DNA of 6,973 nucleotides from an uncultured Rhodospirillales bacterium. Lineage in GTDB: Bacteria; Pseudomonadota; Alphaproteobacteria; Acetobacterales; Acetobacteraceae. The stretch spans positions 1 to 6,973 of the forward strand of contig CAIYPH010000473.1 of the NCBI GenBank assembly GCA_903928045.1. Direction: 5' to 3'. A program made the position numbers and the translations under genes. This document shows, one piece after another, positions 1-6,973 of this stretch. The notes under the pieces were generated by a model that did not search any database, had not been told where the DNA came from, and worked only from the letters and a program-made list of their open reading frames with translations. The number at the start of each line of letters is the position of its first letter. Positions within the stretch are counted from its first letter, which is position 1.

Positions 1-185
1 GCCTTGGCCTCGTTGGAGTAGGTGACGAATCCGCGCTCCACCACGTCGGAACTCCCGGCAATCGCCGTCAGCGTGGCGGCGATCAGCCCGCCCGTGCAAC
101 TCTCCGCGGTGGCCACCATCACGCCCGCCGCGCGGCATTGCGCGAGCAGCGCCTCGGCCGTCGCCAGTATCGCCTCGTCGATCAT
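1..185 (-). CDS. CinA/PncC family nicotinamide-nucleotide amidase, N-terminal part (truncated by window edge)
   Basis: This is the first 61 codons of a protein of the CinA C-terminal domain (PncC) family. Known members deamidate nicotinamide mononucleotide to nicotinate mononucleotide in the cytoplasm, in the pyridine-nucleotide cycle. The fragment starts MIDEAILATAEALL and shows the family signature AESCTGG at residues 27-33, where Ser29 is the likely nucleophile. It ends with VTYSNEAK (54-61), and Tyr56 and Lys61 are the probable partners of the serine. There is no room for an N-terminal molybdopterin-binding-like domain, so this is the short stand-alone form, not full-length CinA. Its ATG overlaps the stop of the preceding gene by four bases (ATGA). 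A G-run at 190-194 could act as its ribosome binding site. Family assignment is firm. The enzymatic role is inferred from the family, and the C-terminal part lies outside the window. Confidence 0.9.
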   Translation of the reverse strand, partial: MIDEAILATAEALLAQCRAAGVMVATAESCTGGLIAATLTAIAGSSDVVERGFVTYSNEAK

Positions 186-1207
186 TCCGGCCCCCTGTTG
201 CCCGTCACCTCCGCCAGCAGGCGGAAAAATCCCAGCTTGCGCTCCGAGCGAATGCCCCAATCGACCGGCAGGCTCTGGTAGCCTTCCGCGAAGCCCTCGC
301 GGATGCGCCGATAGTCGAAATACCCCCAGCCCGCGCGCGACCTTACCGAAGCCAGCATGTTGTTGTCGTCGGCCTCGAAGCCGTAGTGGTCGTCCTCGTT
401 GAACAGGATCGGCTGGCCGTGATAGCCGGTCGAAGCCCGCACCGCCTCCACCATCTCGACGATCCGCGCGGGGTGCTCGACGTTGTTGCCGTGCAACAGC
501 ACGAAATCGCTCACCCCGATGATCTCGGCCGATGGCACCACGCCGCCGTTGAAACTGGTGCTGACCTTGAGCCGCCCCCAGCTCGCCTCGCGCACCCTCG
601 TGATCAGCTCCGCGCAACGGGCGGGGCGGATGATGTCATGGGTGAAGGCGCGGTTGTCGATCTCATTGCCGATCTCCAGCAGCACATTGCGCCAGCCGCC
701 CGCCATCACATGCGCGATGGTGGCATCGAGCGCGCGGATGATTGCCGCCTCGCCGACCAGCCGTCGCGCCGCCGCGCCGTAGAACACGCCGAGGATCACC
801 GCCATTCCCGCGGCATCGGCGGCCTCCAGCACATGATCGAGCCGGCCGAGCGTGTCCGACAGCGGGGTGCCGTCGGCGGCGAAGCCGGAGAAGTTCCATG
901 GCTGGTTCCAGCTATAACCCTGCGGCGAGCCGCCCTGCATGTTGATGGTCACCGCATCCAGCCCGTGGCGGCGATAGGCGGGCAGGGCGGCGCCGAATTC
1001 GAAGCTGTTGCGCGCGGGGTCCCACGGCCCCTCGGCATAGGCCCAGACACCGCGTGTCGCCTGGTTGCGGTCATCGACGATGGCGTTGACCATACGGGCA
1101 TTGAACAACAGGCCGGAGATATCAGTGCCGCGGAAGGAGCGGCCCGCATGCGTCCATTCCCCGTTGCGGGTGAAGCGGTCGCCATCGATGCCGATCACGG
1201 TGCGCAT
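182..1207 (-). CDS. Glycoside-hydrolase-like (clan GH-A type TIM barrel) protein, uncharacterised
   Basis: The 341-residue product starts MRTVIGIDGDRF and has no signal peptide or membrane segment, so it should be cytoplasmic. It reads like a (beta/alpha)8 glycosidase: an early RGTDISGLLFNARMVNAI segment (26-43), TINMQGGSPQGYSW (87-100), a strand MAVILGVFYG (135-144), VLLEIGNEID (175-184), DFVLLHGN (234-241), PILFNEDDH (266-274) and GWGYFDYR (293-300). By analogy with retaining clan GH-A enzymes, Glu182 in the Asn-Glu pair is the candidate acid/base and Glu271, in a second Asn-Glu pair, the candidate nucleophile. I recall similar proteins annotated as hypothetical or cellulase-like, with no known substrate. 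I chose ATG 1207, two bases after the pgpA stop. An ATG at 1249 would add 14 residues inside pgpA and lacks family-like sequence. No clear Shine-Dalgarno precedes 1207, so coupling to pgpA translation is likely. The stop overlaps the start of the CinA-type gene. Confidence 0.8.
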   Translation of the reverse strand: MRTVIGIDGDRFTRNGEWTHAGRSFRGTDISGLLFNARMVNAIVDDRNQATRGVWAYAEGPWDPARNSFEFGAALPAYRRHGLDAVTINMQGGSPQGYSWNQPWNFSGFAADGTPLSDTLGRLDHVLEAADAAGMAVILGVFYGAAARRLVGEAAIIRALDATIAHVMAGGWRNVLLEIGNEIDNRAFTHDIIRPARCAELITRVREASWGRLKVSTSFNGGVVPSAEIIGVSDFVLLHGNNVEHPARIVEMVEAVRASTGYHGQPILFNEDDHYGFEADDNNMLASVRSRAGWGYFDYRRIREGFAEGYQSLPVDWGIRSERKLGFFRLLAEVTGNRGPE

Positions 1208-1209
1208 GG

Positions 1210-1662
1210 TCAATCCAATAGCCCGGGCCAGCCCGTCCGCACCATCCACAGCAGCAGCGCTGCGACCGCGCCGGCCACCACGTCATCCGCCATCACCCCC
1301 TGCGCCCCGCCCAGCCGCTCCGCGGTGCGGATAGGCCCGGGCTTGACGATGTCGAACACCCGGAACAGCACGAAGGCGGCGAGCAGCCCGGCCGGGCTGG
1401 GCGTTGCCAGCCCCAGCATAGCGATCCACTGGCCGCAGAACTCATCGATCACCACCCAGCCCGGGTCCTCCTCCGCCCCGCAGGCTCGCACCGCCCATAG
1501 ACCGGCGAGATAGGCGGCGGCGGCGGCGAGCGGCAGGGCAGGGGGGGAGAGGTGCATGATCCCGGCGCCGAGGATCACCGCGACAAACGAGCCGGCAGTG
1601 CCCGGCGCGAACCGCACCAAGCCGGAGCCGAACCCGCTGGCGATCAGCCGGGCCGGGGTCAT
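1210..1662 (-). CDS. pgpA: Phosphatidylglycerophosphatase A
   Basis: The 150-residue membrane enzyme removes the phosphate from phosphatidylglycerophosphate, giving phosphatidylglycerol at the inner membrane. The PgpA motifs occur in order: RFAPGTAGS at 17-25, VVIDEFCGQW at 70-79, FRVFDIVKPGPI at 100-111 and GAQGVMADDVVAG at 119-131. The acidic residues Asp73, Glu74, Asp126 and Asp127 are the expected metal and phosphate site. Hydrophobic stretches near 26-38, 42-58, 80-100 and 128-140 fit the usual membrane passes, and the length is close to normal for the family. The ATG at 1662 overlaps the stop of the transglycosylase gene (ATGA) and begins directly with MTPARLIASGFGSG, as expected. A longer reading from 1836 would only add residues antisense-like in composition and overlapping the upstream gene. 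It is probably co-transcribed with both neighbours. Confidence 0.93.
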   Translation of the reverse strand: MTPARLIASGFGSGLVRFAPGTAGSFVAVILGAGIMHLSPPALPLAAAAAYLAGLWAVRACGAEEDPGWVVIDEFCGQWIAMLGLATPSPAGLLAAFVLFRVFDIVKPGPIRTAERLGGAQGVMADDVVAGAVAALLLWMVRTGWPGLLD

Positions 1663-3641
1663 CGCAGCCAAGGCGCCAGCGGATGCGGTCGGATTTCGCC
1701 GCGCTTGGCCCGGTAGATCACCTGGTTCTCCACCACCCGCTGCACGTAGTTGCGGGTTTCGCCGAAAGGGATGGTCTCGATCCAGTCGAGCACGTCGGTG
1801 GTTGGCTGGCGCGGGTCGCCATTCCCGGCGATCCATTCGTTCACCCGCGCGGGCCCGGCATTATAGGCCGCCACAGCCAGCACCACCGCGCCGTCGAAGC
1901 GGGCAAGCTGATCGGCGAGATATGCGGTGCCGAGGCGCATGTTGTAATTCGGGTCAAGTACCAGCGCCGGCACCGAGACCGTCAGCTTCAGGCCGCGCGC
2001 GACTTGAGACGCCGTGGCCGGCATCAGCTGCATCAGCCCGCGCGCGCCGACCGGGCTGACCGTCGAACTGTCGAAGCTGCTTTCCTGGCGAATGATGCCG
2101 AGCGACAATGCAGGCTCTGGTGCCGTCAGCGCGGGAGCGTTGACCGGCTGCGGCCAGCCGGTCTCCAGCAGCACCACGCCCGCCCGCCCCGCGCGCCGCG
2201 CCAGGGCCACCGCGGTTTCGGGCATGCCGAGTCCGGTCGCCAGCTTGGCGATCAGCGCCTTGTCCTCGGGATCGGGCGCGATTTCATCGAGCCTGAGCAG
2301 GAAGGGCTGCGCGCGCCTGGCCTCGCCCCAGCCGGCGAGATAGGCCGCGGCGCGGGCGAGGTCGCGGCTCGCCCAGTCCATCATCCGGACTGGATCGGCC
2401 TTGGGGTCGGCGGTGGAGGTGATGCGGGCGCCGAGCGAGGCCGCGGTATCACCGGCCTTGAGCGCGGCGAGCTGACCATAGAAGGTGCTGGGCCAGCGCG
2501 CCCCGGTCGCAAAAGCGGTGTGCGCCGCCTCGGTATTGCCCGCCACCTCCTCGGCGCGGCCAACCCAGTACCAGGCGCGGCCCTGGGTTATCGCGGCGCC
2601 GGACATGGCGGCGAGGGCACGGAAATGCGCGATCGCCTTGCGCGGGTCGTCAAGCCGCCGCAGCGCGATGAAGCCGGCGAGGAATTCGGCATCGGTCGCG
2701 CTCTCCCCGCCCGCCTGCGCGTGCCCGGCGGCGATGGCATAGGCGCCGGCGGCGTCGCCCTGGCGCAAGCGGCGCCGCGCCATGATATTGCGTTCGTTCC
2801 AGAACGCCGCCTGCTTCTCTCCCGCCACCCGCTCCGCCGCGGTGCCGCCCGCGATCCAGGCAGCCTGGGCAGCCTCGTCCTGACCGGACCGGCGCAGATA
2901 CGCGGCCTGGTCGAGGAACACCCCTGGGTCTGGCGCGCGCAAGGCGGCCGCCAGTCCGACGCCCGCCGGATCATCGCGGCGCAGCGCCAGCCGGGCCTCG
3001 AACCGTGCCCGCTCGGCGGGCGCAAGCCGGGCGAGCTGGCGCAGCGCTGCGGCCTCCGCGCCCCGCCCGGCCTCGCTGGTGCGGGAGATATCGGATTGCA
3101 TCAGCCGCTCCATGCGGGCCAATTGCTCGGCGGGGCCGAGGCGGCGACCGTGCTCGTGCAGGAAGCGTTGCTCCCAGGCGGCATCGGCTGGCCCGCCCGC
3201 CCAGACCCGGCGGGCCAGCCGCGTGGCATCCTCCTCGCGGCCGAGTTTCTCGGCAGTCTCGAGGCAATGCAGCATCGTGGCCATCGCCTGCGGCGCGTCC
3301 TGGGCGCAGAACTTGGCCACGCGCGTGTCATCCGGCTCGCCGGCCAGCGCCTCGTCGCGCCGCCGGGCCAGGCTGCCCTGGAGCGGCCAGTCCGGGTTCT
3401 CGGCCATGAAGCCGGCGATCTCCGCCACGTCAGCCCCATTGGGCGACAGCAACCGGTAATAGCGCACCAGCTTGCCCACCACCGGGTCGGTATATCGCGC
3501 GGCCGCCGCCTCGGCCTCGGCCCATCGATCCATGCGGACAAGCGGCATCACATCGCCCGGCGGCGCCTCCGGCGCCTGCGCGATGGCGGGCCCGGCTGTC
3601 ACCGGAATGAGGAGCAGGAGAGAGAGGAGAAAACGTCGCAT
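1659..3641 (-). CDS. slt: Soluble lytic murein transglycosylase (Slt70-like)
   Basis: The 660-residue periplasmic enzyme cleaves the MurNAc-GlcNAc bond of peptidoglycan to give 1,6-anhydro-muropeptides. Residues 1-21 form a signal peptide: MRR, a leucine-rich core, and a likely signal-peptidase I cut after PAIA. Residues from about 30 to 490 are alanine-rich helical sequence with a RAWYWVGRAEE segment near 350, matching the helical superhelix of Slt70. The catalytic SLT domain covers about 505-640. It contains IIRQESSFDSS with catalytic Glu520, GARGLMQLMPATA, the MRLGTAYL segment, AAYNAGP (Tyr593) and ETRNYVQRV. The length is close to E. coli Slt. It is the first gene of the minus-strand cluster and is divergent from the radical SAM gene. 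Its ribosome binding site is weak (AGAAAG-like just upstream). The stop overlaps the pgpA start. The family is certain; the gene symbol is by similarity only. Confidence 0.95.
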   Translation of the reverse strand: MRRFLLSLLLLIPVTAGPAIAQAPEAPPGDVMPLVRMDRWAEAEAAAARYTDPVVGKLVRYYRLLSPNGADVAEIAGFMAENPDWPLQGSLARRRDEALAGEPDDTRVAKFCAQDAPQAMATMLHCLETAEKLGREEDATRLARRVWAGGPADAAWEQRFLHEHGRRLGPAEQLARMERLMQSDISRTSEAGRGAEAAALRQLARLAPAERARFEARLALRRDDPAGVGLAAALRAPDPGVFLDQAAYLRRSGQDEAAQAAWIAGGTAAERVAGEKQAAFWNERNIMARRRLRQGDAAGAYAIAAGHAQAGGESATDAEFLAGFIALRRLDDPRKAIAHFRALAAMSGAAITQGRAWYWVGRAEEVAGNTEAAHTAFATGARWPSTFYGQLAALKAGDTAASLGARITSTADPKADPVRMMDWASRDLARAAAYLAGWGEARRAQPFLLRLDEIAPDPEDKALIAKLATGLGMPETAVALARRAGRAGVVLLETGWPQPVNAPALTAPEPALSLGIIRQESSFDSSTVSPVGARGLMQLMPATASQVARGLKLTVSVPALVLDPNYNMRLGTAYLADQLARFDGAVVLAVAAYNAGPARVNEWIAGNGDPRQPTTDVLDWIETIPFGETRNYVQRVVENQVIYRAKRGEIRPHPLAPWLR

Positions 3642-3775: not shown

Positions 3776-6322
3776 ATGGGCTTCTCCGACTTGCAATTCC
3801 TGCTCCCCGAGCCGGTGCGTGCGGTGTTGAAACCGGCGTATCAGCGGGTGTTTCCGCCCCGTCCAGTGTTCATCGGCTATGTCGCCGAGCGCTCCACCCG
3901 CCACGTCAGCGGCTGGGCCGAAAACGTGCGTGATCGGGCGCAGCGCGTGCCGGTCGAGATCTACTGCACCGCTCCCGAAGGCCGCCGCCTGCTCGGTACC
4001 GCGATCGCCAGCCGCCGCGATTCCGGCCTCGCCGCCCAGGGCGCTGCCGATGCGGATCGTGGTTTCCGCTTCACCTTCCCCGAACCCATCACCGCTGCGG
4101 AGTGCGAGTCGCTCGAAGTCTGGCCGGTCACCGCGCTGCGGCCACTCGCGGTGCTGTCACCGCGCGTGCACGGCTATACCCGCCGCCTCACCGCCCGCGA
4201 GGTGGCCGGCTGGCTGCAGGACGCGACGCAGCCGGAGCGGCGGGTGGCTGTCGAAGTCGTCGCGCGCCGCGATGGCGAGGACCAGGTCGTCGCCCGCGCC
4301 ATCGCCGATCGGCGGGACCCGCGGCTCGCCGCCATCGGTCACCCGTTTCCCGATTGCGGCTTCCGCATCGTGTTCGACCCGCCTCTGGCGGCCAGCGATC
4401 TCCCTGGCCTGCGGGTCCGCGCCGCCGATGATGCGATTGATATCACCTTGGTGCCGACGCCCTCCGGCTTCGTGCGCGAGCGCACGCGCAGCTATGTCGC
4501 GGGGTGGGCGCAGGATCCCGACACCCCCCGCCTGCGGCTCGATGTCGAGGCGGTCCTGTGCCGTGACGGGCGCGAGCAGCTGATTGCCAGCGGGCGCGCT
4601 GACCATGTCGACCGCACCCTCGCCATGGCCGGGCATGAAAACCCGGCCTGCGGTTTCCGCATCCCCTTCGATCCACCGCTCGGCGATGCCGACCTGTCCG
4701 ACCTCCAGGTGCGCATTCGCGGCGATGGCGCCAGGCTTGACTACGTTCCCGCGCCGCCGATCGGCTACGTGCGCGAGCGGGAGCTCACCCATGTCGCGGG
4801 CTGGCTGCTCGACCCCATCGAGCAGCCGCGGCCCCTCATGGTCGAAGCGGTGATCGAGCAGGGCAATCGCGAGATACGCCTCGCCGAGGCGCTGGCCGAC
4901 CGGCATGATCCCCTGCTCGCCGCGGCGGGTCAGCCGCATTCGGATTGCGGCTTCCGCCTGGTGTTCGATCCGCCGCTCCGCGGGGTCGATCCCGCCGACA
5001 TCATTGTGAGGGCCCGCGACAGCGCCACCGTGCTGCACGATTCGGCCTCCGGCATGATCGGCTATCTGCGTGAGCGCACCATCCGCAACGTCGCCGGCTG
5101 GGTGCGCAACCCGGCCGAGCCTGGCGAGCGCGTCGAGATCGAGGTGGTGGTCTCCCGCGACGGCGCCGAGCGCGTCATCGCCACCACCACGGCAGACCGG
5201 TATGATCGGGTGCTCGCCGCGCTCGGCATCGGCGACGCGCTGCACGGCTTTCGCGTGGTGTTCGCCGAGCCGATTCCGGCGGAGGACCTTGCTTCCCTGG
5301 TCGTCCGCAGTCGCGGCATCGGCTACGTCCTGGAGGAGGCGCCGGATATCCAGACCGAATGGCGCCCGCTGCGCTACGTCGCGATGGACATCGTCGACAA
5401 CTGCAACCTGCGCTGCCCGTTCTGCCTGTTTGACCACGCGCCGGTACACCGTACCAACGTGATGGCCGACGAAACCTTCGAGGCCGCGATCCGCCTGCTG
5501 CCTTTCGTTGGCACCGAGGGACACTGGATGTCGTGCCTGCACGAGCCCTCGATGCACCCCAACCTCACCGGCTTCCTGCGCAAGATCCCGCGCGAGAACG
5601 CCCATCTGATGACCTACACCACCAACCTCGCCAAACGCATGCCGGACGCCTACTTCGAGACGCTGGCCGACAGCGGGCTATCCAACATCAACGTCTCCAT
5701 CGAATCGCGCGATCCGGCGATCTACGAGCGCATGCGCAAGGGCGCGCGCCACCGCATCTTCATGGAGAATTGGGACAAGCTGCTCGCCGCCTTCGCCAAG
5801 GGAAAGGCGCCGCCGCCGCTGCGCTACATCGCGATGGCCTACAAGTCGAACTACCGGGAAATCCCGTCGTTGATCGAGTATCTGCGCACCGAGCGCAACG
5901 CCTGGAAGGTCGAGGTGCGCGACACCTACGATGTCGCCCATATCGAGCAGTCCTTCCGTGACGCCGAATATCTCGAGCGCGACCAGTGGATGTGGCTGCG
6001 CAACGCCCTCGCGCATCATTCGCCGCACGAGGTCGTGCTGACCCTGCCGCCCGGCTTCGACGACCCGCCCCCCTCCCAGGGTCCGATCGCCGCCGCTCCG
6101 GCGCCGACCCCAACGCCGCAGGTCGTCACCCTCGATCAGCAGGCCGAGGCCGCGCCGGGATTGATCGAGGCGCGCATTTTCCATGACGGCCAAATGTTCG
6201 TCTACACCTCACCCGACGGCAACTACCCCAACACCGGCGTGCAAATCGCCCACGTCAACATCCGCGACATCGCCGACCCCGCCGCATTCCTGATGGAGCT
6301 CGCCGCCCGCACCCTGGAATAG
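3776..6322 (+). CDS. Radical SAM protein with five N-terminal ~99-residue tandem repeats and a cysteine-free SPASM-like tail
   Basis: The 848-residue protein has no signal peptide or membrane segment, so it is probably cytoplasmic. After a short N-terminus (MGFSDLQFLLPEPV), five repeats fill about residues 34-522. The radical SAM domain follows at about 530-755. Its MDIVDNCNLRCPFC segment carries Cys543, Cys547 and Cys550, the C-x3-C-x2-C motif that binds the [4Fe-4S] cluster reducing S-adenosylmethionine. CLHEPSMHPN (587-596) takes the place of the usual GGEP motif, with Glu590, and INVSIESRDP is a typical later barrel strand. A Pro/Ala-rich linker at about 760-782 leads to a tail (788-848) with FHDGQMFVYTSPDG and NIRDIADPAAF, laid out like a SPASM domain but lacking its cysteines. 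Base composition resembles the neighbours. The reaction and substrate are unknown. A glycan-related role is only an inference from the repeats. No small precursor-peptide gene is visible nearby, which argues weakly against peptide maturation. Confidence 0.88.
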   Translation: MGFSDLQFLLPEPVRAVLKPAYQRVFPPRPVFIGYVAERSTRHVSGWAENVRDRAQRVPVEIYCTAPEGRRLLGTAIASRRDSGLAAQGAADADRGFRFTFPEPITAAECESLEVWPVTALRPLAVLSPRVHGYTRRLTAREVAGWLQDATQPERRVAVEVVARRDGEDQVVARAIADRRDPRLAAIGHPFPDCGFRIVFDPPLAASDLPGLRVRAADDAIDITLVPTPSGFVRERTRSYVAGWAQDPDTPRLRLDVEAVLCRDGREQLIASGRADHVDRTLAMAGHENPACGFRIPFDPPLGDADLSDLQVRIRGDGARLDYVPAPPIGYVRERELTHVAGWLLDPIEQPRPLMVEAVIEQGNREIRLAEALADRHDPLLAAAGQPHSDCGFRLVFDPPLRGVDPADIIVRARDSATVLHDSASGMIGYLRERTIRNVAGWVRNPAEPGERVEIEVVVSRDGAERVIATTTADRYDRVLAALGIGDALHGFRVVFAEPIPAEDLASLVVRSRGIGYVLEEAPDIQTEWRPLRYVAMDIVDNCNLRCPFCLFDHAPVHRTNVMADETFEAAIRLLPFVGTEGHWMSCLHEPSMHPNLTGFLRKIPRENAHLMTYTTNLAKRMPDAYFETLADSGLSNINVSIESRDPAIYERMRKGARHRIFMENWDKLLAAFAKGKAPPPLRYIAMAYKSNYREIPSLIEYLRTERNAWKVEVRDTYDVAHIEQSFRDAEYLERDQWMWLRNALAHHSPHEVVLTLPPGFDDPPPSQGPIAAAPAPTPTPQVVTLDQQAEAAPGLIEARIFHDGQMFVYTSPDGNYPNTGVQIAHVNIRDIADPAAFLMELAARTLE
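3875..5340 (+). repeat. Five tandem in-frame repeats of ~297 bases (~99 residues each)
   Basis: The units start at Gly34 (3875), Gly133 (4172), Gly231 (4466), Gly330 (4763) and Gly429 (5060), giving spacings of 99, 98, 99 and 99 residues. The shared pattern is GYxRER....VAGW..DP at the start, VEVVxxRDG and ADRxDxxLAAxG in the middle, then CGFRxxFDPPL and LxVR near the end. Units 2-4 are the most alike. Unit 1 is the most divergent (GYVAERSTRHVSGW), and unit 5 has HGFRVVFAEPI. The predicted alternation of strands suggests small beta-sandwich modules, which is inference. From memory, related single or paired units sit beside glycosyltransferase and sulfotransferase domains in alphaproteobacteria. 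Confidence 0.9.
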
Positions 6323-6409: not shown

Positions 6410-6973
6410 ATGCTCAAAGGCAATCTCGTCGCACTGATCACGCCCATGCGGGAAGATGGTTCGGTCGATGAGAAAAAACTCGCGGAGTTCATCGACTGGC
6501 AGATCAAAGAGGGGACCGCGGGTCTGGTGCCCACCGGCACCACCGGCGAATCGCCGACGCTGACCCATGAGGAGCATAAGCGCGTCGTCGAGATCACCGT
6601 CCAGGTGGCCGCCGGCCGCGTGCCAGTCATCGCCGGCACCGGCTCCAACTCCACCGCCGAGGCGCTCGACTTCACCAAGCATGCCAAGAAGGCCGGCGCC
6701 GATATGGCGATGCTGGTGACCCCGTACTACAACAAGCCGACGCAGGAGGGGATGTATCTGCACTTCTCCACTATCGCCAAGGCGGTCGATATCCCCATCA
6801 TCATCTACAACATCCCGCCCCGCTCGATCGTCGACATGTCGCCCGAGACCATGGGGCGGCTGGCCAAGATCAAGAACATCGTCGGCGTGAAGGATGCCAC
6901 CGCCAACCTGGCGCGGCCCTACCACACCCGCCGCGAATGCGGTGTGGACTTCATGCAGTTCTCGGGCGAGGAC
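6410..6973 (+). CDS. dapA: 4-hydroxy-tetrahydrodipicolinate synthase, N-terminal 188 residues (truncated by window edge)
   Basis: The cytoplasmic TIM-barrel enzyme condenses pyruvate with aspartate semialdehyde, the first committed step to meso-diaminopimelate and lysine. Without any gap, the residues line up with E. coli DapA numbering: [10 protein letters not shown] with Thr44 and Thr45, [10 protein letters not shown] with Tyr107, YNIPPRS with Tyr133 and Arg138, and GVKDAT with the Schiff-base Lys161. It starts [13 protein letters not shown], normal for the family. The gene lies 87 bases after the radical SAM stop on the same strand, so it may be read from the upstream promoter or from its own. 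About 100 C-terminal residues lie outside the window. The assignment is secure, although paralogous aldolases of the DapA family (such as N-acetylneuraminate lyase) share the fold; the Thr44, Tyr107 and Arg138 set favours true DapA. Confidence 0.96.

Follow-up and report, generated by a model that had tools for sequence, protein, structure and literature searches.

What a radical S-adenosylmethionine (SAM) enzyme does with five tandem copies of a ~99-residue module ahead of its catalytic domain is the question raised by a gene in contig CAIYPH010000473.1 of an uncultured Rhodospirillales bacterium, analyzed here as a 6,973-nt stretch (the window). The open reading frame runs on the plus strand from an ATG at 3776 to a stop at 6322 and encodes 848 aa. 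An earlier note, made from the DNA letters, had read it as a radical SAM enzyme of a new kind whose repeats might bind a carbohydrate or polymer. The architecture is real and seemingly undescribed, and the protein proved not to be the sole example of a new kind of enzyme: it is a member with a long array in a family several hundred strong, in which most examined proteins carry zero, one or two copies of the module.

The repeat array and its family

The five units start at residues 34, 133, 231, 330 and 429, in exact agreement with the spacings of 99, 98, 99 and 99 residues that the earlier note had claimed, and are 26–47% identical in pairs. All five were recovered at 66–93 bits by a hidden Markov model (HMM) of 18 repeats from other proteins, initially selected via a window-based profile, and the same model reported no domain on 1000 shuffles of the window protein. 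An HMM from 11 distant one-copy relatives likewise found all five units (21.9–46.5 bits), and the G-W and F core positions of the repeat were invariant across 23 aligned units. Structure prediction produced one beta-rich unit recurring five times with a radical SAM fold behind it. The Pfam Radical_SAM family (PF04055) matched at 9.8e-13 (49 bits, cut-off 29.5), and the C-x3-C-x2-C motif at Cys543, Cys547 and Cys550 is intact, as had also been noted. Past residue 500 the only other cysteine is Cys587; auxiliary-cluster cysteines are absent from the window protein, and no conserved cysteine was seen in the C-terminal part of the family alignment. Fusion of frames, one of the outcomes that the earlier note had named as refuting its reading, was rejected because full-length relatives have the same layout: the 79%-identical protein P0003 is built in the same way, and the relatives listed carry one to eight repeats. 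A promoter and terminator scan returned one promoter-like site within the gene and no terminator, and was uninformative.

A first protein search scored 7994 proteins, of which 172 reached E <= 0.001. Among the 120 matches listed, one of them the window's own protein, repeats numbered one in seven, two in 73, three in 12, four in 15, five in two (one being the window protein), six in five, seven in three and eight in three; in 19 of the 120, further repeats follow the radical SAM domain. Two of these relatives have the first cluster cysteine replaced (P0011, FNLRCPFC; P0085, GNLRCPFC) and the remaining core kept; they are possible inactive variants or sequence errors. A core-profile search with a length limit of ~400 aa, which excludes most repeat-bearing members, gave 200 proteins, and among the 120 listed, 103 had the motif (no detected repeat in 75, one in 27 and two in one); part of these are short-contig fragments, and some appear complete. 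A search with the distant form gave 567 proteins, with 86 of the 120 listed being new and bearing the motif (one repeat in 83, three repeats in three). Most listed rows of distant relatives carry no taxon name; the names present were Bacteroidales, Vicinamibacterales, Luteitalea, Solibacter, Bryobacterales, Acidobacteriota and Nitrospirota, including Magnetomonas. The pairing of repeat and radical SAM domain, which the earlier note had proposed to look for across alphaproteobacteria, recurs in a family that spans phyla. One family protein of 1090 aa (P0117) joins a methyltransferase domain, a repeat and a radical SAM domain; the stretch ahead of its methyltransferase looks hydrolase-like by eye only and has no Pfam match.

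Within the sampled genomes the gene is accessory. In one bacterial family, 8 of 150 genomes had both repeat and radical SAM domain, and five more had repeats only. Across the order the radical SAM domain was found in 23 of 395 genomes, a sample that includes six genomes known beforehand to be positive, so that the gene may in truth be rarer. In samples at class and phylum level, 2 of 308 and 2 of 319 genomes matched, the pair being identical in both and including the centre genome. In one genome (G204; L107, 8256–9562) the radical SAM gene is split across two overlapping frames, by decay or sequence error. Carriage as mobile or phage cargo was rejected: searches of plasmids and of phages returned no match, none of 26 stretches of viral contigs that fitted the pattern was confirmed as a relative, and PHROGs gave one weak radical SAM match only.

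Growth of the array and the module on other proteins

Each window repeat is 61–81% identical to its counterpart in P0003 and at best 38–47% identical to a repeat of its own protein, so the window array predates the split from P0003. The four copies of P0009 (Limobrevibacterium) are 72–83% identical in the pairs shown and 62–81% by another alignment, and are therefore of recent origin. Similar three-copy arrays occur in distant relatives, with internal identities of 69–84% (P0246), 68–69% (P0265) and 63–92% (P0312), the first two being Nitrospirota by name and the third without a name; together with P0009, these indicate that arrays grew more than once. Repeat 5, which adjoins the radical SAM domain, is nearest to the single copy of distant relatives, scoring 46.5 bits as compared to 21.9–30.5 for repeats 1–4.

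The ratio of nonsynonymous to synonymous substitution rates (dN/dS) was obtained against locus L001 for the core and for repeats 1, 2, 4 and 5, repeat 3 being without a counterpart there. Values were 0.103 for the core, 0.205 for repeat 1, 0.247 for repeat 5, 0.379 for repeat 2 and 0.586 for repeat 4, while the comparison genes dapA (188 codons) and slt gave 0.065 and 0.187. The gene is under selection, strongest in the radical SAM core, and the core value led us to reject a pseudogene for the window gene. Relatives free of repeats have the same radical SAM domain, and the barrel therefore does not always need the arm. One reading of this pattern is that repeats 1–4 are near-neutral duplicates that add length, with only repeat 5 and the barrel mattering. 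Such a spacer would fit the copy number of 0 to 8 on the same barrel, the weaker constraint on repeats 2 and 4 than on the core and the closeness of repeat 5 to the distant one-copy form; however, repeat 1 is also constrained, the G-W and F positions do not vary, and array growth took place in Acetobacterales and Nitrospirota-named relatives at least, and we regard this reading as distinctly unlikely.

The module is also found on proteins of other kinds. The repeat profile marked 35 places in six Acetobacterales genomes, and 16 fetched loci contained 18 repeat-bearing frames, of which 15 were scanned, the others being one radical SAM protein and two duplicates of another locus. A glycosyltransferase domain was found in nine scanned frames, a sulfotransferase domain in one and Hint_2 in six (three of which also have the glycosyltransferase), with no domain in two; the earlier note's placing of such repeats beside glycosyltransferases and sulfotransferases is borne out by ten of these frames. 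Among the Hint_2 frames, one carries an AIDA stalk and another T5SS/PEP-CTERM repeats. The module HMM of the distant one-copy radical SAM relatives matched the repeat-bearing frames at down to 6.8e-26, and judged by this profile match the module of the distant radical SAM relatives is recognisably that of the glycosyltransferase, sulfotransferase and Hint frames. These Acetobacterales proteins likewise have a GW...F module of ~90–99 residues, in one or two copies; they differ from the window protein in that their catalytic domain is not radical SAM and their arrays are shorter. In five Acetobacterales frames (L025, L027, L031, L032 and L037) Hint_2 precedes the repeat, and in L027, L031 and L032 a glycosyltransferase comes next in frame. 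These three may be fusions of a self-cleaving adhesin and a glycosyltransferase, the self-cleavage being guessed from the Hint name. Two further repeat-bearing proteins (L040 and L042) have no Pfam or NCBIfam family match, and L042 also has no solved relative. Of the 395 genomes in the order sample, 225 had the repeat and 319 had Hint_2; co-occurrence of the radical SAM gene with Hint_2 (22 of 23 genomes versus 297 of 372, by hand count) was not convincing.

Searches for the identity of the repeat itself gave no Pfam or NCBIfam match above cut-off over residues 34–522 (best sub-threshold YebG, 14.5 bits versus 27.5) and no credible solved structure by sequence (best E 0.57). In relatives, all matches to carbohydrate modules were sub-threshold (Lyase_N, 24.9 versus 26 bits; Lectin_like, 18.1 versus 27). 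Fold searches used the full model and were filled by its radical SAM domain; with Foldseek, chains of the Ig/FN3 type appeared at template modelling (TM) scores of ~0.1, which we take only as suggesting a beta-sandwich-like unit, and a viral structure library returned, at low TM, radical SAM proteins along with large proteins of several domains.

Proposed role and gene neighbourhood

A tentative reading, possible though short of probable, is that the window protein works in the cytoplasm in the assembly of surface glycans or glycoproteins, as a radical SAM enzyme with a single cluster and with an arm of repeats for binding or docking. Cys543, Cys547 and Cys550 would bind the one [4Fe-4S] cluster that cleaves SAM, and radical chemistry would start on a surface-glycan sugar or a glycan-bearing surface protein during assembly. 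The repeats, putatively a beta-sandwich-like module common to surface-glycan enzymes in these bacteria, would grip the polymer as it grows, or its assembly partners, and deliver them to the barrel. The barrel-adjoining repeat would be the old, fixed part, and tandem duplication would have added the others, giving a longer or multiplied binding arm. That the repeats bind carbohydrate is itself our inference, and a cytoplasmic location is suggested by leaders that show no export signal by eye and are mostly basic. Of possible reactions on a sugar, elimination, rearrangement, decarboxylation or epimerisation seems more probable than methylation, given the lack of an auxiliary cluster and of any cobalamin domain among the Pfam matches, and Cys587, directly ahead of the GGEP-equivalent loop, is a candidate hydrogen donor. 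A more specific proposal, that the enzyme acts on a polysaccharide or glycoprotein held along the tandem array of glycosyltransferase-type modules and fed to the single-cluster barrel, with array length tuned by repeated duplication that occurred independently in at least two phyla, is doubtful.

The gene neighbourhood was surveyed in 31 gene-called loci, several of which are one place fetched twice, with genes of 90 aa or more called and a selection of flanking genes scanned. In the window the minus strand bears a cinA-like gene, a 355-aa frame, pgpA and slt, and the plus strand bears dapA in addition to the radical SAM gene (Table 1). The neighbours slt and dapA are housekeeping rather than glycan genes, and their position is common to L001 only among the loci examined. 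The glycan genes that the earlier note had envisaged around homologues are present near the gene elsewhere: a polysaccharide pyruvyl transferase and glycosyltransferases at L089 (the same place as L010), GINT1_N and two glycosyltransferases at L097, and a methyltransferase-WsaF protein at L090, mixed with LysE, trypsin-like and PEP carboxylase genes, a TonB receptor and a PAS kinase, respectively. However, no conserved neighbourhood was found in the loci examined, and other scanned neighbours were unrelated. It seems that the gene moves on its own, and its neighbours therefore do not name the substrate. The 355-aa frame (window 182–1249, minus strand) has no Pfam or NCBIfam match and also adjoins pgpA in L001. 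At L007 (1814–3181) a phage terminase gene lies near the radical SAM gene, separated from it by a DPBB_1 (lytic transglycolase) gene.

Table 1. Features of the window around the repeat-array radical SAM gene
Feature	Coordinates	Strand	Basis
Whole gene, repeat-array radical SAM protein	3776..6322	+	Open reading frame; 79%-identical full-length relative P0003
N-terminal leader, residues 1-33, two predicted helices, no repeat	3776..3874	+	Structure model; leader survey
Repeat 1, residues 34-132	3875..4171	+	90.6 bits, HMM without window rows
Repeat 2, residues 133-230	4172..4465	+	79.4 bits, same HMM without window rows
Repeat 3, residues 231-329	4466..4762	+	81.3 bits, HMM without window rows
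Repeat 4, residues 330-428	4763..5059	+	66.1 bits, HMM without window rows
Repeat 5, residues 429-523, adjoins radical SAM domain	5060..5344	+	93.1 bits, HMM without window rows
Radical SAM core, residues 529-757	5360..6046	+	
CNLRCPFC (CX3CX2C cluster motif), Cys543/547/550	5402..5425	+	In 118 of the 120 proteins listed
SCLHEP motif, residues 586-591, extra near-invariant Cys587	5531..5548	+	SCLHE in 303/309 proteins selected for a recognisable cluster motif
Variable Pro/Ala-rich linker, residues 758-790	6047..6145	+	Low conservation; predicted local distance difference test (pLDDT) block means 57-81 (residues 761-790)
C-terminal beta-hairpin and helix, residues 791-848, twitch/SPASM-like position, no cysteines	6146..6319	+	
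Lytic transglycosylase (SLT domain), divergent neighbour	1659..3641	-	PF01464 2.2e-26
dapA, 87 bp downstream, cut by window end	6410..6973	+	TIGR00674 246.7 bits, cut-off 206.15

The strongest rival to a role in glycan assembly is a peptide or protein substrate, since the nearest predicted folds, SuiB and SkfB, are peptide maturases. On this somewhat unlikely reading the enzyme would alter a peptide or protein of the cell surface, such as one of the Hint or adhesin type, which the repeats recognise. Its appeal lies also in genes one to three places away that encode a Hint_2 protein (L013, the same as L095), RTX-like proteins (L006 and L008, the latter with an RTX Pfam match of 21.4 bits, below the cut-off of 23) or, at L092, a low-complexity protein with no Pfam match, and in the module itself being carried by Hint_2 proteins such as those with the AIDA stalk and the T5SS/PEP-CTERM repeats. 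However, the window protein is without the auxiliary-cluster cysteines that SuiB-type maturases have, no conserved small neighbour gene was seen among the genes called, and the near-universal presence of Hint_2 in the order makes its proximity weak evidence.

Alternatively, the repeats may bind proteins, either glycosyltransferases or one another, instead of substrate and so position the enzyme within an assembly complex at the inner membrane. A docking scaffold of this kind would be consistent with a module common to several enzyme classes, with fast-evolving middle repeats and with the prevalence of basic leaders (net charge of at least +2 in 60 of 76 examined, 16 of 76 being amphipathic at p < 0.05). 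The window leader, with a net charge of +2, is nevertheless not significantly amphipathic (p 0.21), and four genomes with the radical SAM gene have no other copy of the module at E <= 1e-6, which also weakens homotypic docking as an essential step; we consider the scaffold unlikely.

Comparison with known radical SAM families

The window protein resembles the radical SAM superfamily in its CX3CX2C motif, its predicted partial barrel and its PF04055 match, and by the predicted model it belongs to the radical SAM barrel fold. It differs in fitting no named subfamily and in its five-repeat N-terminal array, and it reads LHEP at the GGEP position, with a near-invariant cysteine ahead. No curated Pfam or NCBIfam family beyond PF04055 fits: the best NCBIfam match by E-value, MoaA (TIGR02666), reached 48 bits against a cut-off of 284.05, W_rSAM_matur (TIGR04317) reached 47.4 bits against 380, and the viperin family (NF038283) was not among the window matches to E 1, relative P0106 scoring 18.4 bits against 180. 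A literature search, judged from titles and abstract openings, found no description of the architecture. The earlier note's statement that no characterised radical SAM protein with this arrangement was known to it is upheld to that extent.

The SPASM/twitch maturases SuiB, SkfB and anSME differ from the window protein in having C-terminal auxiliary-cluster cysteines, and MoaA differs in having a second cluster. Structural neighbours of the predicted model also included DesII, BlsE, AprD4 and viperin, enzymes that act on sugars or nucleotides; sequence similarity of the window protein to these and to AbmM is marginal, and we know of none among the five with a repeat module. Sugar-acting radical SAM enzymes are known mainly for small molecules of antibiotic pathways, and to our knowledge radical chemistry in surface-glycan or glycoprotein assembly is little known; a cross-phylum family joining the radical barrel to a glycosyltransferase module would point to such chemistry. 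Because natural members put 0 to 8 repeats on one conserved barrel, the effect of repeat number can be tested directly. Set beside these enzymes, the window protein is a member of a known superfamily with an apparently undescribed, variable repeat arm.
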